Assembly: GCA_034003725.1 (NCBI GenBank)
Contig: JAVEYB010000003.1
Span: 175,486 to 239,485 of the forward strand
Source of the DNA: Candidatus Zixiibacteriota bacterium
GTDB lineage: Bacteria; Zixibacteria; MSB-5A5; GN15; FEB-12
DNA length: 64,000 nucleotides
Direction: 5' to 3'
Shown piece by piece: positions 7,524 to 20,671 of this stretch (position 1 is its first letter; each line of letters opens with the position of its first letter). Under the pieces are notes generated by a model. The model was not told the origin of the DNA. It saw nothing but the letters and a program-made list of their open reading frames with translations, and searched no databases. Made by a program: the position numbers and the translations under genes.

Positions 7524-9836
7524 ATGTCGGCCCATCCAAGACTGCGCCAGGATCTCATCTCATCTCCGACCGTCGTCGACGGCGATACGCTGTACACGAT
7601 CAAGGACCCGGTCACGGGAAAGTTCTTCCGCCTGCGCGAACCGGAGTTCTGGCTGATCAACAGGCTCGACGGTACGCGGTCTGCCGAGGATGTCGCGCGC
7701 CTCTTCAACGAGAACTTCGGCGCCCGGCTGCAGGCTGCCGATGTCCAGCAGTTTGTCGACCTGCTCGGCGGGCTGTGTTTCCTGGAAGACCACCGCTCAG
7801 AGCAGGAGTTGATGCGTGCGGCGGGCAGCCGCTTCGCGGCACGGACCCTGTTTGGACGGCTTCTGTACATTCGCTTCAAAGCTTTCAAGCCCGGCAGGAC
7901 TCTCGACCGGCTTGCGGCGTGGTATCGGCCCTTTCATCGACTGCTCTGGTTGCTTGTCGCAACCGCCGTTATCGTTTTCGGCGTAATCGTGATGTTCGCC
8001 AACGCGCGCGAGTTCGCTGCTATCAATATCGATCGCCTGCTGACCGTCGGTCACGTACTGACCATCATGACGGCCCTGTTCGTGCTGATCGTCTTCCATG
8101 AGTTTGCCCACGCCCTGGCCTGCCGATATTACGGCGGCTCCGTCCGCGAAATGGGCTTTTTGCTGATGTATTTCCAGCCTTGCTTCTACTGCGATGTTTC
8201 CGACGCCTGGCTGTTTCCGGAAAAACGCCAGCGGATAGTCGTGACGCTGGCCGGGCCGTTCATGCAACTGCTGCTGACCGCGATCGCCGTGCTGATATGG
8301 CGCGTGACCGTACCCGGGACAATCATCAGCGAAGTGGCGCGCGTCCTCGTGGTCGTCAGCTCGGTCAGCTACCTGTTCAATTTCAACCCCCTGATCAAGC
8401 TGGATGGCTATTACCTGCTGTCCGACTGGCTGGAAATCACCAATCTCCGATCGAAATCTTTCGACTATTTCGCCAACGCAGTCAGGCGCCACGTGTTGGG
8501 ATGGGACATCCCGGCCGTACAGGTCACACGCCGCGAGCGCCGGATTTACCTCCTCTACGCCGTTGGTGCGCTGGCCTATTCCGCGTTTCTCATTGCCTTT
8601 GTACTGTACCTGCTCGGACGGCTGCTGATCGGCGCGTGGGGAGGGGCCGGATTGCTGTTGTTAGCTGCCGTTGTGTTGTTTATCTTGCGCCAACAGTTTG
8701 TCGATTTGGCGAAGGGAATCGTCACTCACATTCACCATATGCGCGCCCTGCTCAAACATCCTGTTCGGCTGGCCATACACGTGGCCGTCGCAGCCGCCGT
8801 GATCGTGGTCCTGGTGGCGGTGCCGTTTCCGTACCGGGTGTCCGGCGAAGTTATCGTCCGGCCGATCGCCTCATACCGGCTTTCCATGAACGATTACGGC
8901 CTGATCGAAAGCAGTCTCCGGCGGGGCGGCGTGAATCCCGACCAGAAGTTCTCCATCCTGCAGATGAACAACGCCGAAATGGGTGTGCTCGAACTGGTGC
9001 CGATTGTCCGCGATGGCCAGGTCATTATTGAGGCGGATACGATCGCTATCCTGACCAGCAACCAGGTGGTACAGGAAATATCCGAGGCCGAGGCGGAGCT
9101 GGGCCGGCTGCAAAGCGAGCTTGATCTCCTTCGCGCGCCGCCCAAAAAGGAGGAAGTGCAGGAGGCCGAATCGGAGCTGGCCGCCGCGCGTGCCGCATAC
9201 GAGAAAAAGCGCAGCGACTTGCAGCGCGCCGAGGAGTTGTTCCGCAAAAGCCTGATATCGTCCGAGGAGTTGGAGAACCGCCGATCGGACATGAAAATCG
9301 CCCTCGCCGACTGGCAACGACTGGGATCGTCGCTGGATCTGCTCAAGTCGCCGCCTCGCCCGCAGGAAGAGACTGTGCTTGTCCGGTCGATTGACAAGCA
9401 GAAAGCACGCCTCCAGTTCTTGCGGTCACAGGGCGACGCGCAGGTTATCACGGCGCCGTTCTCAGGGGTCGTCTCGCGCAATCCCAATGATGCGATCATC
9501 ATGTCGGTGATCGATGACAATCCGGTTGAACTGCTCGTCCCCGTCAACGACTTCGACATCACGCGCGTAAATGTCGGACAAACGGTCAAACTCAAGGTCC
9601 GCTCCTATCCGCACCGGGTGTTTGCCGGCGAAGTGGTAAGAATTCCCGAGGCGGCGACCGTCGCACAAGAACAACAATACTTCCCGGTGACGGTGGTCGT
9701 GGACAATTCCGACGGTCGGCTGGCCGACGGCATGACCGGGTACGCCAAAATAGAGACCGGACGGTCTTCGTTACTGGGGCTGCTGTACTACAAGTTTCTC
9801 TCGAAAATTCGGGTCGAGTTCTGGTCCTGGTGGTAG
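7524..9836 (+). CDS. PqqD-like / M50 site-2 metalloprotease / HlyD-type adaptor fusion protein
   Basis: The 770-residue protein has three parts. Residues 1-95 resemble PqqD peptide-binding domains (TIKDPVTGKFFRLREPEFWL and a following helical wing). Residues 140-420 are a multi-span M50 protease: the zinc motif HEFAH is at about 192-196 and the third-ligand motif NFNPLIKLDGYYLLSD at about 287-301. Residues 425-770 are a membrane-fusion (HlyD/biotinyl-lipoyl) region with a long coiled coil (about 490-615). Such fusions are seen with peptide maturation and export loci, where PqqD-like domains bind leader peptides. No ABC transporter or radical-SAM gene is adjacent, but a 24-codon gene with its own promoter lies 260 bp downstream. 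The ATG has no strong ribosome-binding site. Confidence 0.85.
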   Translation: MSAHPRLRQDLISSPTVVDGDTLYTIKDPVTGKFFRLREPEFWLINRLDGTRSAEDVARLFNENFGARLQAADVQQFVDLLGGLCFLEDHRSEQELMRAAGSRFAARTLFGRLLYIRFKAFKPGRTLDRLAAWYRPFHRLLWLLVATAVIVFGVIVMFANAREFAAINIDRLLTVGHVLTIMTALFVLIVFHEFAHALACRYYGGSVREMGFLLMYFQPCFYCDVSDAWLFPEKRQRIVVTLAGPFMQLLLTAIAVLIWRVTVPGTIISEVARVLVVVSSVSYLFNFNPLIKLDGYYLLSDWLEITNLRSKSFDYFANAVRRHVLGWDIPAVQVTRRERRIYLLYAVGALAYSAFLIAFVLYLLGRLLIGAWGGAGLLLLAAVVLFILRQQFVDLAKGIVTHIHHMRALLKHPVRLAIHVAVAAAVIVVLVAVPFPYRVSGEVIVRPIASYRLSMNDYGLIESSLRRGGVNPDQKFSILQMNNAEMGVLELVPIVRDGQVIIEADTIAILTSNQVVQEISEAEAELGRLQSELDLLRAPPKKEEVQEAESELAAARAAYEKKRSDLQRAEELFRKSLISSEELENRRSDMKIALADWQRLGSSLDLLKSPPRPQEETVLVRSIDKQKARLQFLRSQGDAQVITAPFSGVVSRNPNDAIIMSVIDDNPVELLVPVNDFDITRVNVGQTVKLKVRSYPHRVFAGEVVRIPEAATVAQEQQYFPVTVVVDNSDGRLADGMTGYAKIETGRSSLLGLLYYKFLSKIRVEFWSWW

Positions 9837-9975
9837 GGGAAAATTTTTCCATCTCGCGGTGTGATTCATTCACTCACACAGCTATCTCCATATGCGCTAT
9901 TGCGTAATGTCACACGTACTGAGCGCGTGTATGGGAGGCTCGTGGGCGGATATTCCTGACGTGCAACTTTGCACC

Positions 9976-10003
9976 TTGACAAAAAGTCGTTGCGCGGTAT
10001 TTT
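9976..10003 (+). promoter_or_regulatory. Sigma70-type promoter for the 24-codon gene
   Basis: Consensus TTGACA (9976-9981), 16-bp spacer, TATTTT (9998-10003). It lies about 95 bp upstream of the small gene's ATG and after the M50 gene, so it should drive a separate short transcript. Confidence 0.6.
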
Positions 10004-10097
10004 ATTAGCACATCTTGTCATTCCGTGCGGCCCTTCTTTGTCGCACCCCGCGGCATAGGATGCCGATAACCTATAACCTCAAGCAGGGGAGTTGTCC

Positions 10098-10172
10098 ATG
10101 GATTACAAACTCAGTGTCGAAGTCCTGGAAGCTCGCATTGCTCCGATGCCGTTCAGCTTGGGCGGACAGTAA
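10098..10172 (+). CDS. Candidate 24-residue peptide (possible precursor or leader peptide)
   Basis: A short frame runs from ATG 10098 to TAA 10170. It has a good ribosome-binding site (GGGGAG, 7 nt spacing), a near-consensus promoter about 95 bp upstream and a strong hairpin about 220 bp downstream. The peptide is mixed acidic/hydrophobic, contains EVLEARIAP and ends in SLGGQ, so it carries a GG pair near its end. No family is recognised. Its position directly after the PqqD-M50-HlyD gene suggests it could be a substrate, but that is inference. The same frame stays mostly open after two stops (to 10353), so a longer ancestral peptide or a recoded product is conceivable. Confidence 0.5.
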   Translation: MDYKLSVEVLEARIAPMPFSLGGQ

Positions 10173-10393
10173 TCGGTAGATGCCATGTATCGGGCGCAGT
10201 AGTGTCCGAACATGCCGCATGGACATCGCTCGTCAGATCGCAGTGTGCGGAAGCCGGTGTGTGATTTCACCGGCCGAGACGATGAAATCTGCCTCCAATA
10301 CGGTAAGATATCGTCGCACACCGCGAAGATGCTGCGTGTCGCATGCGGAACCTGAGAATTCAGGTTGACTTCGCAAAGCACATACGATGTGCC

Positions 10394-10419
10394 AAAGGCA
10401 GGAGCTCGCTCCTGCCTTT
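10394..10419 (+). terminator. Long perfect hairpin ending the small-gene transcript
   Basis: A 12-bp perfect stem (10394-10405 with 10408-10419) has a 2-nt formal loop, followed by the T-rich GTCGTTTTC. Between the 24-codon gene and this hairpin (10173-10393) I see no convincing gene. A 62-codon Cys-rich frame at 10180 lacks a ribosome-binding site. Confidence 0.7.
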
Positions 10420-10463
10420 GTCGTTTTCATACGACTCGTTTCGGGATGGGCGGGGACTAAAGA

Positions 10464-13442
10464 TCAGCGAGACCTCTTGCTCAGCCTGGCGCCAAGATGC
10501 TGAACCTGGGTGACGAGATACGTCAGGTGGCGCTGGCTCTGGTAGAGCGCTCTGTCCTCGGGGTCCGTGATCGAATCGGCAACCTGTTTGGCGAACCGCA
10601 GACCGTTGCGAAGGTGCTCGTAACAGGCTTCATAGTCGTTCTGTCCCGCGTAGAATCTTCCGAGCAGCGTGTGAATCGTGACCAGCTCCGGGACAAGGCC
10701 GCTGCCGGCGGCGTGCGTTCGCGCCGTTTCGAGGTAACGCAGCGCAAGTTCGGTTTCACCGGTCAGGATCATGGCCTCTCCCAGCGCGGCGGCCATGCGG
10801 CCCGTTTCGATATCGACGTACTCGGGAAGCGGTTTGCCCGTCGACATGATTGCCTTCAGCGTTGACTCGACCTTCGCTCTGTCGCCGGCTTCAAGTGCCG
10901 CTTCCAGTACTGCGAACCACGACAGGTACGCTTCCCGTGGCAAATGCAGTTGCCGGCACAGTTCGAGGACGAGGGCGTGATCGGCTTTGTCCGGGTCGAC
11001 TCGCAGCGCCAGAAGCAGCGCGTTGAGCCGTTCATGGGCGAGACCGCGTTTCTCCGCCTGCCGGGCTGCATCGAGCGCGCCGTCAAGCGCGAGTTGCCGA
11101 TCGCCGACCGCATGGCGAAGCGACGCGCGCTGTACCGCAAGGTTGAGCGAATTGATGTTGTCATCGAGCCGTGCCGCCAGTGTGGCTCCATGATCGAACT
11201 CCTCCAACGCATCGCAGAGCCTGCCCAGGCGCTTATAGACAATTCCCATGCTGACATGCAGCGCAGCCAAGCTTGGCTGGTCGTCAAGAGCGTCCGCAAG
11301 CGTAATCCCTTCGCTAAGATACGAGAGGGATTCGCGAAGGCGGCCGGCGCTGATCATCACGCCCGTGAGATTGTGCAGGTTGAAGAGTATCTCTTTCTTG
11401 TTGCCGACGGCGCGGTTGATCTCAAGCGATTCGCTCAGATAGTCGAGTGCCGCCTGAGAGTCTCCGATAATCTTGAGCACGTACCCGAGGTTGTTGAGGG
11501 TACGCGCCAGTCCGACCCGGTCGACGATCTGGCGTTGGATAGCCAGCGCATTTTCGAACAGGACTTTGGCGCGGGCGTGCCGCCCCTCAACGAAAAATGC
11601 CGTCGCCAGATTACTGAGACTGCTCGCGATGTCGGCTCCGGCGTTGAGACGACGCTGGATGCGAAGCGCCTTCAGGTAGTTTTTCCTGCACGCCCGCCAC
11701 TCGTTGCGCAGCCAGTGAAGGTTGCCGATGTTGTTCAGCGTGTGCGAGAGTTCGAGTTCGTCGCCCAGGTCCGTGTAAATCTCGCGGGCCTTTTCGAGCG
11801 CCGACAGCCCTTCGTCGGTCTGCTGCTTCATCCTGTACACGTCGCCGAGATCCTTATACGACTCGGCGAGCAGCTTGTCGGGCGGACGGCCGTCGTACAG
11901 CTCGATCAGTCTCCGGTAAGACCGCAGGGCCGGTTCCGTATCTCCGGCGCGCTTTTCGATATCGCCCCGCGTCATGTACAGCAGCCGTACGTCGAACGAC
12001 CTGCCGGTCATGTCGGCCAGTGCGAATACCGCATTCAGCACGACATACGCGTGTTTCTGGTCGCCGGCTTTTTCCAGAGCCAGCGCCGCTTGGTCGGCGC
12101 ATTCCGCAGCGCGTGTGAGATTTCCCGCCCGCAGGTACAGCGATGCCGCGAGTCCGTAGTCACAAGCGGCACTGGCCGCTTCGGCATGAGCCGGGGCCAG
12201 CCGCTTTATTGTCGCGGGGCGAAGCAGACCGCCGAGCAACACCGCAAGCGGACTGCCGGTCGGCCGAACGTCGCCGACACTGAACGCCGCCTCCGCTGCC
12301 ACCGCCTCGCGCACTGTATCCTTTTTCTGCCGGAACGACAGCGCGGCGAACTTCGCGAGCGCCGCTCTCCGCATGCATGCCGGCCAATAAAATCCCCGGC
12401 CGACGACATACCGAGCCGCTTCGTAGACGGCCATGCCCCTGCGGAAGGTCGCCGTCAGCGCCGCTTTGAGCGCTTGCGGATCACCGCCCGTGATGCAGTC
12501 GATATGGGCGCGGTCCCGGGGGCGTACGTCAATCCACCGATCAAGCATCTCGGCATATCCGGAATCACCGAGCACATGCCACGGCGCAAGCGCCTTTCTA
12601 AACGGATAGGTCGCTCCCAGCGTTTCCAAATGCCGGCAGACTTCCCAGGCGTCGGCGGGACGATCCTTTTCATCGACGGCCAAAAGTCGTCGCACCAGAT
12701 CGGCGAATCCTTCGGACATCTCCGGGCGAAACGGTATCGGGTCGGGGTAATCGCCCTCGCGAACGCGGCTCGATACCCGCACCGGGTCGCTCTCGCCATG
12801 CAGGAACGGATGTCTGCCGGTTATCAATTGGTAAGCGATCACGCCGAGCGCAAAGAGGTCGGATCGATGACTCGTCTTTCCGTCAACAATCGTCTCCGGG
12901 GCCATGTAGCCGACCGTGCCTGCCCCGAGGCGTGACGTCTCCGGCTCATCGATGCGGCGCCCCAGCGAGAAGTCCGACAGGCGCACGAAAAACAAGCCCC
13001 GTCCGATGCGCGCGCGCCAGTCTGGCGGCAGAAAGAAATTGGAGGATTTCAGATCTCCGTGCACCAGTCGAACTGCATGCAGGTATTCCAACACGGCGGC
13101 TGCGGCGGAGATCAGGTTGCAGGCGTCGGCAAACGACTCGGCGCGGCCGACCGTATCGAGCGTCGGGCCGCTGCAGAGTTCAAGAAGCAGATAGTCGGGA
13201 TCGCGATGTGGCGGTTCAAGAATCCGCACCAGGCCGGGATACCGCAGCGAGCCGATCAGCTCGAATTCCCGTTGAGCGAGTCGTGAGAAGTCAACCTCGG
13301 CGTTGCCGCCGGCAGCGAGCGGGTATTTGGCCGCCGCCTCGCGGCCCAGGCGGGTCGAAAAGACACGCGCAACATCGGCGGTGCCCCCGCGTCCCAGGGG
13401 AGCGATAAATCGAAGGTCGGGGCTCGCGAACGGGGCGTCCAT
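10464..13442 (-). CDS. Serine/threonine protein kinase with C-terminal TPR array
   Basis: The 992-residue protein begins with a eukaryotic-type kinase domain (about residues 10-275). It has a glycine-rich loop (LGRGGTADV), ATP-anchoring Lys39 (AAAKY), catalytic loop HGDLKSSN (Asp130, Asn135), and the metal-binding motif DFS instead of DFG (Asp157). The activation segment ends in APE (VGYMAPET). HGD replaces HRD, so it is not an RD-type kinase. Residues about 400-990 are a long helical repeat region of the TPR type, suited to protein recognition. No transmembrane segment is evident. The gene starts 12 bp after the histidine kinase at 13455-15257, so they form one transcript and may share a pathway. 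Confidence 0.93.
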   Translation of the reverse strand: MDAPFASPDLRFIAPLGRGGTADVARVFSTRLGREAAAKYPLAAGGNAEVDFSRLAQREFELIGSLRYPGLVRILEPPHRDPDYLLLELCSGPTLDTVGRAESFADACNLISAAAAVLEYLHAVRLVHGDLKSSNFFLPPDWRARIGRGLFFVRLSDFSLGRRIDEPETSRLGAGTVGYMAPETIVDGKTSHRSDLFALGVIAYQLITGRHPFLHGESDPVRVSSRVREGDYPDPIPFRPEMSEGFADLVRRLLAVDEKDRPADAWEVCRHLETLGATYPFRKALAPWHVLGDSGYAEMLDRWIDVRPRDRAHIDCITGGDPQALKAALTATFRRGMAVYEAARYVVGRGFYWPACMRRAALAKFAALSFRQKKDTVREAVAAEAAFSVGDVRPTGSPLAVLLGGLLRPATIKRLAPAHAEAASAACDYGLAASLYLRAGNLTRAAECADQAALALEKAGDQKHAYVVLNAVFALADMTGRSFDVRLLYMTRGDIEKRAGDTEPALRSYRRLIELYDGRPPDKLLAESYKDLGDVYRMKQQTDEGLSALEKAREIYTDLGDELELSHTLNNIGNLHWLRNEWRACRKNYLKALRIQRRLNAGADIASSLSNLATAFFVEGRHARAKVLFENALAIQRQIVDRVGLARTLNNLGYVLKIIGDSQAALDYLSESLEINRAVGNKKEILFNLHNLTGVMISAGRLRESLSYLSEGITLADALDDQPSLAALHVSMGIVYKRLGRLCDALEEFDHGATLAARLDDNINSLNLAVQRASLRHAVGDRQLALDGALDAARQAEKRGLAHERLNALLLALRVDPDKADHALVLELCRQLHLPREAYLSWFAVLEAALEAGDRAKVESTLKAIMSTGKPLPEYVDIETGRMAAALGEAMILTGETELALRYLETARTHAAGSGLVPELVTIHTLLGRFYAGQNDYEACYEHLRNGLRFAKQVADSITDPEDRALYQSQRHLTYLVTQVQHLGARLSKRSR

Positions 13443-13454
13443 ACCGCGCCGCGC

Positions 13455-15257
13455 CTATTCCGGCCTGGACTGGAAACGGGGGAGGATCAACTGGAACATC
13501 GTGCCCTTCCCCGGCGTCGATGACGCCACCAGCTCGCCGCCGTGTCCCTCGACGATCTTCTTGCAGTTGTACAGCCCCAGGCCGTGTCCGCCCTTTTTGG
13601 TTGTGAAGTGCAGCGTGAAAATCTTGCTCACCGTCTCCTCGGACATGCCCACGCCGTTGTCCGTCACCTTCACCGACACGGTTTCGTGGCTGCGACGATA
13701 CTTGGCCTCGATGCCGATTTCCCGTTTGAAGTCCTTGTCGCTTTCTTCGTTCGTCCGCTGATCGATGGCGTCCACCGCGTTGTTCAGCAGGTTCATCAGG
13801 ACCTGCTGGATCTGACCGACGTCGATCTCCACGTTGGGCAGGTCGTCGGCAAGATCGAGCGTAAAATGCACGGTTTTGAACCTCGGCTGTATCCGCAGCG
13901 AGAACAGCAGGTCGTCGATCAGGTGGCGCACGTCGTAACTGATATACTCGGGCTCCGGCTTTGAGAAGTCCATCAGGCTGTCGACAAAGCGCTTGATCTT
14001 GAAAACGTTTTCGACAATCGACTTGCTGTTGAACTTCGCTTTTTCATAGCGCTCGTTGGTCAGGTTCATGCCGAGCAACTCGGCGTTGTTCGAGATAATG
14101 GACAGGTAGTTGTTCAGCTCGTGAGCCACCGATGCCGCCATCTCGCCGCGTGCGACGAGCTTTTCGGACAAAATAACGTACCGCTCCATAGTCACCTTTT
14201 CGGTAACGTCTTCGATCGCCATCACCAGACCGTCGCCGCCTCCCGGTACTTGCGGGATAGGCGACATCTTGATCGAAAGAACCTTCTCGATATAACCGGT
14301 GTCGTGGAAAAACCGGGCGTCTGCAAACTCCTCGCCCGTGGCAAACACGGTGTTGATCATCCGGTGCCACCGGCTCTTCTGGTTCGCCGGCAGCAGATCC
14401 AGAAAGACGGTCGGCGACTGAGTATCGCCGATCAGCGCCAAATCCTTGCGATTGAGATCGAATATCTCCAGCGCCGCAGGATTGATCGTGGCGATATGTC
14501 CCGACGAGTCGATCACGACAATGCCCACCGGCGAGCTTTTCACCACGGAATCCGAATACCGCTTCAGGTGCAGCAACGAATCGTAAATACGAGCGTTGTG
14601 CAGCGCGTTCGATACCATCTGCGCGTACAATTCGAACAAGTACAGGTCGGCCTTCAAAAACATCTTCGTCTGACTCGAATTGTCGAGATAGATGACGCCG
14701 ATCACTTCCGACTTCACCGTGAGCGCGACGCACATGATCGATCGCAAATGCAGCTCGACAACCGACTTCTGCGAAGCGTACCGCTCGTCGGCCATCGCGT
14801 CCGACGTATATATGGAGCGCCCGGTGGCGACCACTTCCGACGCCACGCTGGAGGAGATCCGGTAGTCGTCGCTTTGCATCTCGTCTTTGCTGAGGTTGTA
14901 CGCGGCCCGGGTCTGCAGCTGCCCGTCCTCGTCAAGCAGCATGATCAACCCGCGCTCAGCCTGCATGAACTCGATCGCCTTGTGCATGACATTCTGCAGA
15001 ACGTCATCGAGCACCAGTGTCGAGTTGATCGCCATGGACACTTCGAGCAGCGCCCGAAGATCAGTGGTATGTGCCGCGCCTCCCTGATCTTCGGTCTGTA
15101 TACGCGGATTCGCTTCCGCTACCTGATCGAGTGTCGCTTCGAGATCGGCGAACAGATCCGCAGGCATCGGCCCGCTGTCATTCATGCCCCGTTCATCGCG
15201 CGATTTCTCGGCGAGGCCCCCCGGATTCCGACGCTTTTCCTCTTGCGTACGATTCAT
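13455..15257 (-). CDS. Cytoplasmic GAF-PAS sensor histidine kinase
   Basis: The protein of about 600 residues has a GAF domain (about 65-215), a PAS domain (about 225-345), a DHp H-box (SVAHELNNYLSIISNNAELL, about 372-391) and an HATPase_c domain. The ATPase has its N box at NLLNNAVDAID, G1 at DNGVGM and G2 at KGGHGLGLYNCKKI. No membrane segment is present, so it senses an intracellular signal. ATG 15257 and the GTG one codon upstream are both possible starts. No receiver is adjacent; it is followed by the Ser/Thr kinase gene and could act on that pathway or on the regulator at 17891-19234. Confidence 0.93.
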   Translation of the reverse strand: MNRTQEEKRRNPGGLAEKSRDERGMNDSGPMPADLFADLEATLDQVAEANPRIQTEDQGGAAHTTDLRALLEVSMAINSTLVLDDVLQNVMHKAIEFMQAERGLIMLLDEDGQLQTRAAYNLSKDEMQSDDYRISSSVASEVVATGRSIYTSDAMADERYASQKSVVELHLRSIMCVALTVKSEVIGVIYLDNSSQTKMFLKADLYLFELYAQMVSNALHNARIYDSLLHLKRYSDSVVKSSPVGIVVIDSSGHIATINPAALEIFDLNRKDLALIGDTQSPTVFLDLLPANQKSRWHRMINTVFATGEEFADARFFHDTGYIEKVLSIKMSPIPQVPGGGDGLVMAIEDVTEKVTMERYVILSEKLVARGEMAASVAHELNNYLSIISNNAELLGMNLTNERYEKAKFNSKSIVENVFKIKRFVDSLMDFSKPEPEYISYDVRHLIDDLLFSLRIQPRFKTVHFTLDLADDLPNVEIDVGQIQQVLMNLLNNAVDAIDQRTNEESDKDFKREIGIEAKYRRSHETVSVKVTDNGVGMSEETVSKIFTLHFTTKKGGHGLGLYNCKKIVEGHGGELVASSTPGKGTMFQLILPRFQSRPE

Positions 15258-15353
15258 CACCCTTGGCCTCTGTGTATTCGATTGTCTTCTATACAGATAT
15301 CGGACGAATACCGGAGGGGTTTAACGGGCCGGAAGGATTATTTTGGGCGATGA

Positions 15354-15998
15354 CTACGGTCGAGGCAAAATCTCAGCCGGTGAGAACGGCCGCGACTCTA
15401 TCTTAAACGTCTCCCGTCCGTATCCGGTGATCTCGAGGAATCCGGAAAACAAGGTGGACAAAAACGACGGGCCCCCGTCGACATCCCCCGGGGCCGGATT
15501 GATTCCTATGCCCGCCAACGAGATAGACGTTATCTCCAGCTTCAGAAAATAGCGCCGCTCCGTCTCCAGCGAATCGGCTTTGATCAGTGGGATGGTGATC
15601 GAGTCCGCCAGATACTCGGCCAGACCGGCAAGCGACGAGAACGATCTCTCTTCGGTTGAGTCGACCCCCAACGGCCGCAGAACCCAGAGCTCGGTGAGAA
15701 TCCGATACGACAGCAGCCACGCGCGCCCGGTCTCGGCGGCTTTCACCGCTCCGAACAGTCGCCTCGGCCGATTGAGACTTGCCCGGCACTCGATCGCGTG
15801 GTCGATGCCGTCTTCAATTCGCTCGATGACCGGAGTCCGAAGCAGGCCCGACAGATCGACCCACGCCGTTACGGAGTCGTCAACCAGCAGAATATCGAAC
15901 GCGAAGTCGACCTGCCTGTCATCGGCCCGGACAGCCGCACCGGTGCCCGCGCCTGCCAGCAGGATGGTCAACAGCACGATCTGCAGAGCGGCACGCAG
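15354..15998 (-). CDS. Exported DUF4390-like protein
   Basis: The mature part (QVDFAFDILLVDDSV onward) resembles DUF4390, a family of small exported proteins often found beside NtrY/NtrX-type two-component genes, as here. It would have a signal peptide (RAALQIVLLTILLAGAGTGAAVRA). The start is uncertain: no ATG or GTG fits a signal peptide, and a CTG at 15998 gives the best one. Starts further upstream would overlap the barrel gene. The frame itself is convincing, since it begins just as the upstream gene ends. Function of the family is unknown. Confidence 0.65.
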   Translation of the reverse strand: MRAALQIVLLTILLAGAGTGAAVRADDRQVDFAFDILLVDDSVTAWVDLSGLLRTPVIERIEDGIDHAIECRASLNRPRRLFGAVKAAETGRAWLLSYRILTELWVLRPLGVDSTEERSFSSLAGLAEYLADSITIPLIKADSLETERRYFLKLEITSISLAGIGINPAPGDVDGGPSFLSTLFSGFLEITGYGRETFKIESRPFSPAEILPRP

Positions 15999-16011
15999 CG
16001 GCCGGGCCCGA

Positions 16012-17760
16012 TCAGAAACTGTGCTCGCACCGGGCGTATACCTGGAGATCCTTGTCCTCCGCGCCGTCGAGCCGTTGTGCCAGCGATACCCGGAAATAAT
16101 CACCAATGTACAGCGCTCCACCCAGCGACTGCTTCCATTCAATATCCCCGTTCAGCGGCGAATCGTTGCTGATCTGTCCCACATCATACAGTACGCCGAG
16201 CGCAAAATCCGATTTGGGGAAGCGGAACCGGTATTCGAGATTCGCCAGCCAGAAACGCTTCCCGATGAACTCCTTGTGTTTGTACCCGCGAAGCGTGCCG
16301 AGGCCGCCCATATAATAACGTTTCTGCATGGGCAGGTATCCGTCCGAGGCGCCCACCACAAGCCGTGAAATCAGCATGATCCGCGAGTGAATCTCCTGAT
16401 ACCGGGCAGCCGAGAACTGGTACCGGCGATAGTCGTAGTCAGACGACAGCTTGTCGTCGGACCACTCGATCTGCCCGGTCAGGTTCCAGGCCGAAAAATC
16501 GTACGGGTGTTTCTCGTCGCGGGTGTCAAACGCCCCCCGAATCACAAGCGCCGCCGTCGTTCCGGTGTCGATTTCCGCGATACCCCGGTCGCGGATCGAC
16601 GGGTCCACCCGGTGGAAGTTGCGTGGGAACTTCTTGTCGCCGCCGAACAGCGACCAGAGATCACGCTCCGCCTCGAACCAGCGCGTTTCGTCGTACCGGT
16701 AACCGGTCTCGATCTGGAGGTATTCGACCGGCTTCACCCGATAGTACAAATATCCGCCCGTGCGTTCATAGTAGTCACGGAAGTCCTCCGTGACCAGCAA
16801 CGTGTACACGTTGTTCTCGTTTCTGGACAGCAGCCACTCGTCTTCAGTGGCGAGTTCCTTGTACGCGACCCCTCCGATCGCCATAGGCATCTCCCGCCAG
16901 AGGGTCTGCTCGACACCGAACCTCAGCCGCGAACGCTTCGACTCGAACGCGTATCCAACCTCGGCTACCACGTTCGGCAGCAGCGAGTCGCGATCCCGAT
17001 ACTCGAATCGCGCCAGCGGCGTAATTCCGTCAACCCGGTTGTAGTACGCCGTGCCGCTCAGTGAACTCTCGTTGATGGAGCGGTAGAACCGGCGGCTGCG
17101 ACCCTTCTGCTCGGCCGTGCCCGTATAGACGATTCCGTACACCGATGCATCGCGGGCGATTTGCACCTTGCCGGTCACCGATGCAACGTCGCCGCGCGCG
17201 ACCGCGTCAGGAGCGACATAAATGCCGCCGAACAGCGTTACGATATCCTTGTTGACCTCCCCGAAAACGTCTATATCGCCGGTCACGGAGAAAATGAATC
17301 CCCGCACGAACGATCCTTCCTCGACTCGCACGTTGTCAAAAGCGCGAATCATGTTGCCGCGACGGAGCCGGGCGATGTCCGGATCGGCGCTGTCCCCGCG
17401 GTAGAAGACGATCGATGTCCCCTCATCGTCGTCAAACACCCGCATGTCAACGATGTCGTCGTACGCGAACGTGGTCCCTTTGATCTCGAGCCCCGTGGCG
17501 TCGAATCGTATCCCGCTCGCCAGACGGACCTCTGCCGCGTCGTGCTCAACCGACTCCAGCGGTATCTCGTACGACCGTGTCCCACCCTCTTCAGGAACTG
17601 TGATAACGAGTACCTGGTCGTCGAACGCTATCCAGAAGAACTCGGCCCTGGTCGACGCTGCCTGGTATTCTTTGTACTGGGGCTCAGCCGCCGCCGCTAT
17701 GATGTGCATGACACCGAAGAAGAGCAGCGCAGCTGCCAATGTATTCCTGACGCGATGCAT
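16012..17760 (-). CDS. Outer-membrane beta-barrel protein with bactofilin-like N-terminal repeat region
   Basis: The 582-residue protein has a signal peptide (MHRVRNTLAAALLFFGVMHI...); the ATG at 17760 has GGAGG 4 nt upstream. The N-terminal 130 residues are beta-rich. Residues about 140-220 show short hydrophobic-glycine repeats (GDIDVFGEVNKDIVTLFGG, VASVTGKVQIARDASVYG) like the beta-helix of bactofilins and other polymer-forming proteins. The rest is a barrel of the Omp85/surface-antigen type with GLGTLRGYKHKEFIGKR and a terminal Phe, the usual barrel-assembly signal. A transport or surface role is likely. It lies downstream of the NtrC-like regulator. Confidence 0.8.
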   Translation of the reverse strand: MHRVRNTLAAALLFFGVMHIIAAAAEPQYKEYQAASTRAEFFWIAFDDQVLVITVPEEGGTRSYEIPLESVEHDAAEVRLASGIRFDATGLEIKGTTFAYDDIVDMRVFDDDEGTSIVFYRGDSADPDIARLRRGNMIRAFDNVRVEEGSFVRGFIFSVTGDIDVFGEVNKDIVTLFGGIYVAPDAVARGDVASVTGKVQIARDASVYGIVYTGTAEQKGRSRRFYRSINESSLSGTAYYNRVDGITPLARFEYRDRDSLLPNVVAEVGYAFESKRSRLRFGVEQTLWREMPMAIGGVAYKELATEDEWLLSRNENNVYTLLVTEDFRDYYERTGGYLYYRVKPVEYLQIETGYRYDETRWFEAERDLWSLFGGDKKFPRNFHRVDPSIRDRGIAEIDTGTTAALVIRGAFDTRDEKHPYDFSAWNLTGQIEWSDDKLSSDYDYRRYQFSAARYQEIHSRIMLISRLVVGASDGYLPMQKRYYMGGLGTLRGYKHKEFIGKRFWLANLEYRFRFPKSDFALGVLYDVGQISNDSPLNGDIEWKQSLGGALYIGDYFRVSLAQRLDGAEDKDLQVYARCEHSF

Positions 17761-17890
17761 ATATCCTCCGTTTTCCCCACTACCAAACAAACCTCGTGCC
17801 AAAAGTGCAAGTGTTGAATTGACGGGGGATTGCCCTTTCATGCCAGTGATTTTGTGGCAGAGGAACACGGACGTGCACAGAATTTGTTCT

Positions 17891-19234
17891 TCACGCCTTC
17901 AGGCCGAGGTCTTTGATTTTGCGTGACAGGTTGGCCCGGTCCACACCCAGAATCCGTGCCGCCTCAGAGATGTTGCCGCCGGCCTGTGACAGGGCGTCTT
18001 CGATAACCGACCGCTCGAAGCGCGCCAACTGGTCCGCAAGAGATAATATCGGTTCCTTTGCCGGTGACGACGCCACTCCCGCCGGAGTGGACTGGGCGCG
18101 AAGTTGTTCGATGCCGACGGTCTGGCCGGAATGGAGGATACAGATTCGTTCGATCAGGTTCTTGAGCTGACGCACATTGCCCGGAAAGGGCTGCACGGTC
18201 AGCCACGCCAGCGCGTCGCCGGACAGACGTGTCGAACCGGTCGGGTCGAAGCGATGCAGAAACGCGCCGGCCAGCATCGGGATGTCATCGTGCCGTGCGG
18301 AAAGAGTCGGCACGTCGACAAGAAAGACGGAGATCCGGTAGTACAAATCCTCCCGGAAGGCGCCGTCCGCGACCATCCTGCGCAGGTCGCGATTCGTCGC
18401 GCAGACCACTCGCACGTCGACACGGCGGTGTCGCTCCGAGCCGAGCGTCTCGATTTCTCCCGTTTCAAGCACTCGAAGCAGCTTCGCCTGGCACGCGCGG
18501 GGGAGATCGCCGATTTCATCGAAGAAAATGGTGCCGCCGTCGGCAAGAACAAACTTGCCGGCATGGTCCTTGACCGCGCCCGTGAACGACCCCTTGACAT
18601 GACCGAACAGCTCGGATTCAAACAACGTCTCCGGAATGCCCGGGCAATTGACTTTTATGAATGGCCTGGTACGGCGGGGACTCTCGAGCACGAGGCGGGT
18701 GGCAACTAGTTCCTTGCCCGTGCCGTTGGCGCCCGTGATGAGGACCGTCGTGTCTGCTGTCGCAACCTGGCTGATGGTGTTGCGAAGACGCTTCATTGCG
18801 GCTGACTCGCCCACCATCGGCGACTCCCGGTCCAAATCGTCGGCCGCTGCCCGACGCTGGCGGGCGGCCTCCGCAACCAGCAACGCCGCCTTGACCGATG
18901 CAATCAGCTTTTCCGGTGAGACCGGTTTCTCCAGAAAGTCGACCGCCCCCAGCCGTACGGCTTCCAGCGCCATCGGTATGTCGGCCTGTCCGGAAATCAT
19001 CAGCACCTCGACCGGCAGGCGGGTAGCGGATATCTCGCGAAGGCACTCCAGCCCGGACTTCCCCGGCAGCTGGATATCGAGCAGGACGAGATCGACGTCA
19101 CTTCGTCCGATTGCCGTCAGCGCCTCTTCGGCCGATTGCGCCACCACCGCCTCGTATCCCTCGTCGGCCAGCAGAGACGAAAAGGACCGCGTGATATTGG
19201 GTTCGTCGTCGACAATGAGGATTCTCGCCGGCAT
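17891..19234 (-). CDS. Sigma-54-dependent response regulator, NtrC/NtrX family
   Basis: The 447-residue regulator has a receiver domain (phosphoacceptor Asp53 in LLDIQLPGKSG), an AAA+ domain with Walker A GANGTGKE (about 170) and the sigma-54 contact motif GSFTGA (normally GAFTGA), and a C-terminal Fis-type helix-turn-helix (NISEAARILGVDRANLSRKI). It would activate sigma-54 promoters when phosphorylated. The cognate sensor ends 3 bp upstream of its start, so the pair is translationally linked. Confidence 0.96.
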   Translation of the reverse strand: MPARILIVDDEPNITRSFSSLLADEGYEAVVAQSAEEALTAIGRSDVDLVLLDIQLPGKSGLECLREISATRLPVEVLMISGQADIPMALEAVRLGAVDFLEKPVSPEKLIASVKAALLVAEAARQRRAAADDLDRESPMVGESAAMKRLRNTISQVATADTTVLITGANGTGKELVATRLVLESPRRTRPFIKVNCPGIPETLFESELFGHVKGSFTGAVKDHAGKFVLADGGTIFFDEIGDLPRACQAKLLRVLETGEIETLGSERHRRVDVRVVCATNRDLRRMVADGAFREDLYYRISVFLVDVPTLSARHDDIPMLAGAFLHRFDPTGSTRLSGDALAWLTVQPFPGNVRQLKNLIERICILHSGQTVGIEQLRAQSTPAGVASSPAKEPILSLADQLARFERSVIEDALSQAGGNISEAARILGVDRANLSRKIKDLGLKA

Positions 19235-19237
19235 GGC

Positions 19238-20671
19238 TCAGGACCTTTTTGTCAGAGAGATCGTCACCGTGGTGCCTTCACCCTCGCGCGAAACGATATC
19301 AAGCTGCCCGCCCATCTCTGCGACCGATTTTTCCACGATTGCCAGTCCCAGTCCGTGCCCCTGCGGCTTGGTCGTGAAATACGGAAGGCGCGCCGATGCC
19401 AGTGTTGACTCATTCATCCCCGGTCCGTGGTCGGCGACGGCGATGTCCACCCGATGCGGATGCTCGGTCACGCTGACCGTCACGTTTCCCTTTCGGTCGG
19501 TGGCGTCCAGCCCGTTCTGAATCAGGTTGTGCAGGGCCTCGCGAAGGTAGGCGACGTCGACCGCGACCACACAGGGCTGCTCCGGCAACTGCGCATCGAC
19601 CCGGTACGGCGCGTCGGCGTCTCTATACAATGTCAGCAGGTTGCCGACCAGCTCGTTGAGGTCGGTTTCCACTAAGGCAGGTGGCGGCAGTTTGGCGAGG
19701 TGCGAGAACCGCTCCGCCAGTTGTTTCAGATGGCGAACCTCATCCGAGGCCGCCTTGAGCGGCTCGTATACCTTGTCGTACTGGTCGCTGTCGATCAGCA
19801 GACGCTCCATACGGTAGAGGGAGACGAGAATCGGCTGCAGCGGGTTTTTCAACTCGTGTGCGAACCGGCGGGCCACCTGCCGCCACGCCGCCACCCGTTC
19901 GGTCGCCCGCAGGCGCGCGGTCGTGCTTTCCAGCTGGATCGCCATCTGGTTGAAGCGCTCGATCAGGTTGCGGACTTCCTGTTCCCCTCGGGGCTCAACG
20001 CGCGCGCGAAAGTCGCCGTCCGCGATGCTTGTCGCCGCATCGCTGAGTTCGGCCAGCGGTTGCGCCAGACTGCGCGCCAGGTGGCGGGAGCGGAGCGACG
20101 CAAACAAAACCGTCGCAAGGGCGAGGGTCAAAAACAGTCCGCCGAGAAATATCGTATAGCGCGACTGCAACTCGCGGAACCCGGACCGTCCGGCCATGTC
20201 GCGCTGGATCGCCCGCTCGAGCGATCGAAACTGAGTCCCGTGCGCGAACCCCGCCACGAGAAGCCGGTCACCCATCTGGACGGCCCGGTACTGGTAAATC
20301 CTGCCCCCGGCGTCGGCGTACCCCTGATCGCGCGAGCGTGCCGCCAGCAATATCGCCGCCGCCGCGTCCGGCCCCACCACGTCGGCGCCGCGGGGAAGTT
20401 CCACCACGCCGTCGACTGCTCGAAGCACGAAGTCCGCGGAGACCGCGCTGAGCGTATCGGCCGAATATCGGGAAAGATCATCCGCAAGACGGCTGTACAG
20501 CAGCCCGGCATAATACTCCGCCACCGTGTTTCGTCCCTCGTTGTCGTATCCGAAGCTGGACGATCCCGCGTGTACGACGAGATAATACCCCGCCGCCGCG
20601 AGAACCGCGGCCGGGACAAGCGAGAAACCCAGAAACAAACGAAAGAGCTTTTGCCCGAACCCGATTGCCAT
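19238..20671 (-). CDS. Membrane sensor histidine kinase, NtrY-like
   Basis: The 477-residue protein has an N-terminal membrane helix (about 10-32), an extracytoplasmic sensor region (about 35-170), a second helix (about 172-190), a HAMP domain (about 195-250), a DHp box (FAHELKNPLQPILVSLYRME) and an HATPase_c domain with NGLDATD, DHGPGM and GHGLGLAIVEK. It lies directly before the NtrC-like regulator (3-bp gap) and 5 bp after the NUDIX gene. The signal sensed is not evident. Confidence 0.95.
   Translation of the reverse strand: MAIGFGQKLFRLFLGFSLVPAAVLAAAGYYLVVHAGSSSFGYDNEGRNTVAEYYAGLLYSRLADDLSRYSADTLSAVSADFVLRAVDGVVELPRGADVVGPDAAAAILLAARSRDQGYADAGGRIYQYRAVQMGDRLLVAGFAHGTQFRSLERAIQRDMAGRSGFRELQSRYTIFLGGLFLTLALATVLFASLRSRHLARSLAQPLAELSDAATSIADGDFRARVEPRGEQEVRNLIERFNQMAIQLESTTARLRATERVAAWRQVARRFAHELKNPLQPILVSLYRMERLLIDSDQYDKVYEPLKAASDEVRHLKQLAERFSHLAKLPPPALVETDLNELVGNLLTLYRDADAPYRVDAQLPEQPCVVAVDVAYLREALHNLIQNGLDATDRKGNVTVSVTEHPHRVDIAVADHGPGMNESTLASARLPYFTTKPQGHGLGLAIVEKSVAEMGGQLDIVSREGEGTTVTISLTKRS

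Follow-up and report, generated by a model that had tools for sequence, protein, structure and literature searches.

A conserved small-peptide gene associated with an RRE-M50-HlyD fusion protein and a TPR kinase in Zixiibacteriota: a candidate peptide-signalling cassette

A 64-kb stretch of the genome (3.7 Mb, 99.5% complete) of a Candidatus Zixiibacteriota bacterium, referred to here as the window, carries on its plus strand a gene for a large fusion protein followed by a frame of 24 codons and, converging on the latter from the minus strand, a Ser/Thr kinase gene that adjoins that of a histidine kinase. The features are the following:

7524..9836, plus strand: RRE(PqqD)-M50-HlyD fusion of 770 aa, a predicted leader-binding intramembrane peptidase with a periplasmic adaptor
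7524..7808, plus strand: PqqD-like RRE at the N-terminus of the fusion (residues 1-95; beta strands 12-18, 21-27 and 34-38; alpha helices 39-46, 54-65 and 71-83)
7941..8693, plus strand: M50 site-2-protease membrane domain of the fusion (residues ~140-390; HEFAH at 192-196, NPLIKLDGYY at 288-297)
8826..9833, plus strand: HlyD/MacA-type periplasmic adaptor domain of the fusion (residues ~435-770)
9976..10003, plus strand: sigma-70-like promoter of the peptide gene, TTGACA-16-TATTTT, its -35 box conserved within the genus
10051..10065, plus strand: 5'UTR hairpin CGGCAT-AGG-ATGCCG, with hairpins at the same place in other genera
10085..10091, plus strand: Shine-Dalgarno sequence AGGGGAG, with the ATG 6 nt downstream
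10098..10172, plus strand: 24-codon precursor gene (75 nt; MDYKLSVEVLEARIAP followed by MPFSLGGQ; full frame MDYKLSVEVLEARIAPMPFSLGGQ)
10098..10145, plus strand: predicted leader MDYKLSVEVLEARIAP, comparable to the daptide leader ELExMEAP (PMC10036551)
10146..10169, plus strand: predicted 8-residue core MPFSLGGQ (family consensus xGxSxGGQ)
10393..10420, no strand assigned: 12-bp hairpin with a T tail, in the gap where the peptide and kinase genes converge; it resembles a terminator on the plus strand
10464..13442, minus strand: Ser/Thr kinase of 992 aa, without a predicted TM helix, whose C-terminal part is an LGN-like TPR superhelix; candidate receptor of the peptide
13455..15260, minus strand: GAF-PAS-histidine kinase, a candidate downstream partner, which in most of the family comes after the TPR kinase

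The preliminary description had read the large protein as a leader-binding-like domain, a membrane zinc protease and a membrane-fusion adaptor joined in one chain, and profile searches agree with it. Pfam recognizes M50 (4e-8) and HlyD_3 (2e-8), and the NCBIfam model daptide_HExxH (NF041824) covers residues 24-395 (1e-69), with a score of 235.5 bits (238.3 in the genome search) that lies under its curated cut-off of 300 bits; the epipeptide protease YydH/LiaK (NF058609) also matches over the M50 core (E=3e-13). The HExxH residues (H192, E193 and H196) and the NPLIKLDGYY motif are invariant in 20 homologues, and hydropathy predicts seven TM helices. As for the N-terminal domain, PF05402 matches the window protein weakly (E=0.008) but hits 11 of 15 homologues, at best with 7.6e-7; among PDB sequences, a profile of the domain matches a PqqD best (3g2b; weak, E=0.055), and the AlphaFold2 model of the domain, with a mean pLDDT of 79, shows the order beta-beta-beta-alpha-alpha-alpha. 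Since Foldseek with the whole fusion model returned HlyD-type adaptors only, the RRE assignment rests on PF05402, the NF041824 match and the fold order. Fusions of this kind are found in 100 of 132 Zixiibacteriota genomes.

Is the 24-codon frame a gene at all? A profile built only from the peptides of other families finds it in the 64-kb window with E=2.5e-10, the runner-up being at 5.4, and gives no score below 4.6 in the reversed window. A location-blind six-frame search of whole genomes retrieves the peptide, mostly in a single copy, from 104 of the 132 genomes of the phylum at E<=0.01 (a hand tally from the match listing). Both invariant Leu positions use all six Leu codons, and the invariant Pro is likewise written with each of its four codons, a synonymous variation which indicates that the peptide is selected at the protein level. 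On sequence grounds, then, the frame is a real, phylum-wide peptide gene, and it matches nothing in Pfam and NCBIfam scans. In its own genome the peptide HMM matches once only at E<=1, so no large second substrate is seen. The LEPR-XLL surface-protein motif was weighed for its resemblance to LE.R, and was set aside after a literature search had returned nothing relevant and given this single match.

The precursors are 22-35 residues long across the family. Leader positions that are invariant or nearly so are L, E, LE, A and P, in a consensus L..E.LE.[RK]IAP (also given as [VI]E.LE.[RK]IAP) in which L, E and P are invariant, and the core follows xGxSxGGQ, with a length of 6-9 residues in 97 of 113 copies. 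The closest precedent is that of the daptides, in which a site-2 protease with an RRE fused to its N-terminus (MpaP/DapP, NF041824) removes a leader ending in ELExMEAP, the mature product starting after the Pro (PMC10036551). The architecture of the peptidase is alike, and the two leader consensuses are related but different. Unlike the daptide peptidase, however, the fusion adds a HlyD domain; none of the modifying enzymes dapB/C/D/M appears among the Pfam-scanned neighbours or the genes common to the relatives' loci; the 8-residue core contrasts with the invariant C-terminal Thr of daptide precursors, the cores here ending in GGQ or variants and none in Thr; and the partner here is a TPR kinase. 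Membership in the daptides was rejected for the lack of Dap enzymes and C-terminal Thr and for the score below cut-off. The epipeptide system resembles this one in using an M50 protease (YydH/LiaK, NF058609) to mature a small peptide, but relies on a radical-SAM epimerase and an ABC exporter, neither of which is present here, where RRE and HlyD parts are added instead.

The tiny gene had also been credited with a near-consensus promoter, a good ribosome-binding site and a strong hairpin. Taken within the window alone, promoter and hairpin are near chance (one found of each, against 0.5 and 0.3 expected), and the gene's own promoter draws its support from comparison: the genus of the window conserves the -35 box as well as the 5'UTR, and 53 of 81 orthologous peptides have promoter-like sites upstream when shuffles predict 7.7. 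As for the ribosome-binding site, a Shine-Dalgarno run lies upstream of 70 of the 81 in a narrow scan. The hairpin stands as a structure, 12 bp with its T tail, although not as one that exceeds chance in the window. The 5'UTR has features of its own: about 50 nt within 10010-10097 are nearly invariant in the genus, and perfect hairpins (stem of at least 6) occur in this region in 24 of 80 genomes against 1.6 expected, so that some control at the RNA level is possible.

A recurring small frame beside homologues of the fusion had been proposed as a check, and such a frame indeed adjoins the fusion in nearly every family-level relative. Across the 132 genomes of the phylum, 96 have both fusion and peptide, 4 the fusion only, 8 the peptide only and 24 neither (Fisher ~1e-15, from a hand-counted cross-table uncorrected for MAG incompleteness or shared ancestry). 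Family f4 has its fusion gene at a distance of ~20 kb or on a different contig, next to pepP/accB/accC-type genes, and the peptide is still found tail-to-tail with the kinase. Two individual genomes deserve mention. G030 (L101:8708-8782) has a peptide with a decayed core end, GGWSNGRP, and an intact kinase, the fusion being absent from the genome, and G073 has two copies of the peptide, one beside the fusion (L129:10706-10768) and one elsewhere (L200:6772-6834), neither of which adjoins a TPR kinase.

What the preliminary description missed is the gene on the opposite strand. Peptide and Ser/Thr kinase-TPR gene are tail-to-tail in 72 of the 81 genomes with fetched loci, mostly 20-110 nt apart, and outside the order the partners likewise combine Pkinase and TPR (one with AAA_16); in a few genomes (G073, G107, G110) the peptide lies away from a TPR kinase. 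Of 61 relatives, 48 have the fusion together with the kinase, 8 have neither and 5 are discordant (1 + 4). The window kinase contains TPR_12 (Pfam, 8.7e-32), K39, D130, N135 and D157 are kept in 16 of 16 aligned kinases, and several Asn of the TPRs are invariant. In its structural model (pLDDT 90), the N-terminal half best matches PknB/CaMKII-type kinases, and the top Foldseek matches of the C-terminal half are the TPRs of LGN/Pins (5a7d, 6hc2), which share the superhelix but are eukaryotic scaffold proteins without a kinase domain. TPR domains of LGN/Pins bind extended peptides. The TPR kinase is thus a more constant neighbour of the peptide than the protease is, and this turns the interpretation away from an exported product and toward a signal: the maturation and export locus initially proposed keeps its link between peptide and protease, with export as a presumed step and the emphasis displaced. 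This linkage also bears on another explanation, with the kinase there incidentally, in which the peptide would give rise to a small cofactor, in the manner of PqqA and PQQ, or would serve the M50 protease as a structural subunit or an inhibitor. A PqqD-like domain next to a 24-aa precursor does resemble PqqA/PqqD, and the leader is strongly conserved, but the loci share no recurrent gene for maturation, radical-SAM or other, and families with an unlinked protease retain the linkage to the kinase, all of which makes this explanation highly improbable.

The reading that we prefer, to which we give a probability of roughly 60%, is that of a cassette in which a daptide-like leader peptidase would free an unmodified peptide of ~8 residues that regulates the adjacent TPR kinase. 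The 22-35-residue precursor would be made from its own promoter, as the conserved promoter and Shine-Dalgarno sites suggest, and its leader would be bound by the N-terminal RRE of the fusion, in keeping with homology and co-occurrence. The M50 domain would then cut after the invariant Pro16, by the daptide precedent (PMC10036551), freeing a core that is usually of 7-8 residues and here would be MPFSLGGQ; no modifying enzyme would be needed. The suggestion that the peptide is a substrate beside its processing protein gains from the daptide-like leader and from the co-occurrence of both genes in two phyla (see below), the processing itself being deduced. The HlyD part may carry the core toward a TolC-type outer-membrane channel or control its release; in line with the earlier remark that the usual ABC transporter is missing, neither a TolC nor an ABC gene is found among the genes examined at the locus, nor an ABC transporter among the genes common to the relatives' loci, and TolC-family/OEP proteins are encoded elsewhere in the genome. 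The convergent Ser/Thr kinase would be the cognate receptor, a role to which its constant linkage, co-loss and fold point, with the TPR superhelix binding the core and setting the kinase output, probably jointly with the adjacent GAF-PAS histidine kinase. Against this reading it can be argued that the adjacency of the kinase could have other reasons, such as phosphorylation of the peptide, and that G030 keeps peptide and kinase without the fusion.

A signal between cells is possible, yet how would it return? The kinase has no TM helix and its genome has no SBP_bac_5/OppA-type binding protein (PF00496), which 11 of 14 control genomes do have, so the usual re-import route is missing: either some other importer is present or the kinase detects the precursor or the core within the cell that makes them. 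The same two observations, together with a leader conserved as strongly as the core and a convergent single-copy layout throughout the phylum, favour a cell-autonomous gauge, in which cytoplasmic precursor binds the TPR kinase and is removed by the protease-exporter, so that the kinase would read the state of membrane or export and not population density. Nevertheless, the size of the precursor and its Pro-ending leader suit cleavage to a short core, TolC homologues are present, and where the kinase is lost it is the core that changes and not the leader; we therefore regard such a gauge as unlikely. That loss concerns four genomes of one genus (G031, G078, G079 and G080), which lack a kinase orthologue genome-wide. 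In its place the peptide gene is multiplied, to seven copies in L079, four in L073 and five in G031, where a contig break splits the set; the core has changed to S[RK][YWF]Gx[DE], and the arrays adjoin the retained GAF-PAS histidine kinase. As a single clade, these genomes count as one event. Tandem arrays of 4-7 genes with this core are located at L079:12462-14171, L073:12488-13584, L209 and L103, and the repeats of the first include a recurring terminator-like unit.

A second phylum was sampled (118 genomes), that of an Armatimonadetes-labelled MAG carrying a distant fusion. The fusion occurs in exactly four of these genomes and the best peptide hits (E<=0.0131) in the same four (Fisher 1.3e-7). 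Their LE.RIAP-type peptides adjoin membrane signalling proteins, namely HD-GYP proteins (L089, L216, L217) and two GGDEF proteins plus one SpoIIE phosphatase (L215), and in most cases a single peptide gene immediately precedes each of them. It is chiefly because two lineages couple one and the same leader to different kinds of signalling output that we take the peptide for a signal. The second phylum also weighs on the alternative of a true RiPP or effector (antimicrobial or some other secreted product), whose core Ser the kinase would phosphorylate or whose production it would merely regulate. Leader processing with the help of an RRE is typical of RiPPs, most families conserve the core Ser and a LanC-like gene follows a truncated kinase in G057; but the Ser is missing at that place in some members of family f16 (GGFIGGGS, AGFIGAGS), the core is strongly conserved phylum-wide in single copy without the immunity, modification or ABC genes of bacteriocins, and the neighbours in the second phylum are second-messenger and phosphatase proteins instead of modifying enzymes. 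Indeed, no RiPP modifying enzyme is constant beside the peptide in any family, the kinase remaining a conceivable one, and the LanC-like neighbour was dropped as a modifying enzyme because it was seen only once. Taken together, a RiPP or effector appears distinctly unlikely. In L215:600-9310, some seven peptides, the majority of which have W.R or FWR at the end, are interleaved with the two GGDEF and the SpoIIE genes, a layout that looks like one peptide per receptor.

The published features of RRNPP systems are a small propeptide, Sec secretion, a receptor of 250-500 aa, TPRs and adjacency of the two genes (PMC10075063). Three of these five are found at our locus, which suggests that the cassette works like RRNPP systems without being a member. 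As in RRNPP(A) pairs (Rap-Phr, PlcR-PapR, AimR-AimP), a tiny propeptide gene directly adjoins a TPR protein, the core is short and C-terminal, and tandem propeptides occur. In RRNPP systems the peptide comes back through an Opp permease, binds in the TPR groove and changes the activity of its receptor. Unlike them, the candidate receptor has 992 aa and a kinase domain, the 24-aa precursor shows by inspection no hydrophobic stretch in place of a Sec signal, no PF00496 protein for Opp re-import is encoded in the genome, and a dedicated RRE-protease-adaptor is present, with convergent genes, in a diderm uncultured phylum and not in Firmicutes. In the literature searched for PqqD with M50 and HlyD, or RRE with site-2 protease and HlyD, the daptide paper alone matched, and no paper was found describing the combination of peptide, fusion and TPR kinase. 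This leads us to propose, tentatively and at slightly less than even odds, a new class of bacterial peptide signalling, in which a single-chain RRE-protease-adaptor would cleave and export precursors with LE.RIAP leaders, every precursor having a signalling protein of its own as genetic partner (in Zixiibacteriota a TPR kinase, elsewhere an HD-GYP, GGDEF or SpoIIE membrane protein), and the whole would form a modular ligand-receptor system shared by uncultured diderm phyla. Peptide signalling via TPR proteins is known from Firmicutes and their phages. If the proposal is true, TPR-linked signalling would extend to uncultured diderm bacteria, there served by a kinase partner and by a protein dedicated to maturation and export, and RRE-guided peptide processing would be tied to signalling instead of natural-product chemistry. 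As there is a named candidate for each role, from ligand through processing enzyme to receptor, the proposal lends itself to direct testing in a heterologous host; and as the peptide gene is too short for the usual gene callers, such systems may be widely overlooked.

Two further observations concern the surroundings of the kinase. In G057 (L102:6823-10812) it is truncated after residue 716 and followed by a partial kinase and the LanC-like cyclase, with the kinase C-terminus and the peptide elsewhere in the contig (L208), which reflects a rearrangement or a misassembly. In the window, the minus-strand block at 13455-20671 encodes the GAF-PAS histidine kinase, a DUF4390 protein, an Omp85-type protein, a sigma-54 response regulator and a HAMP histidine kinase, and much of it is kept with the cassette in relatives.
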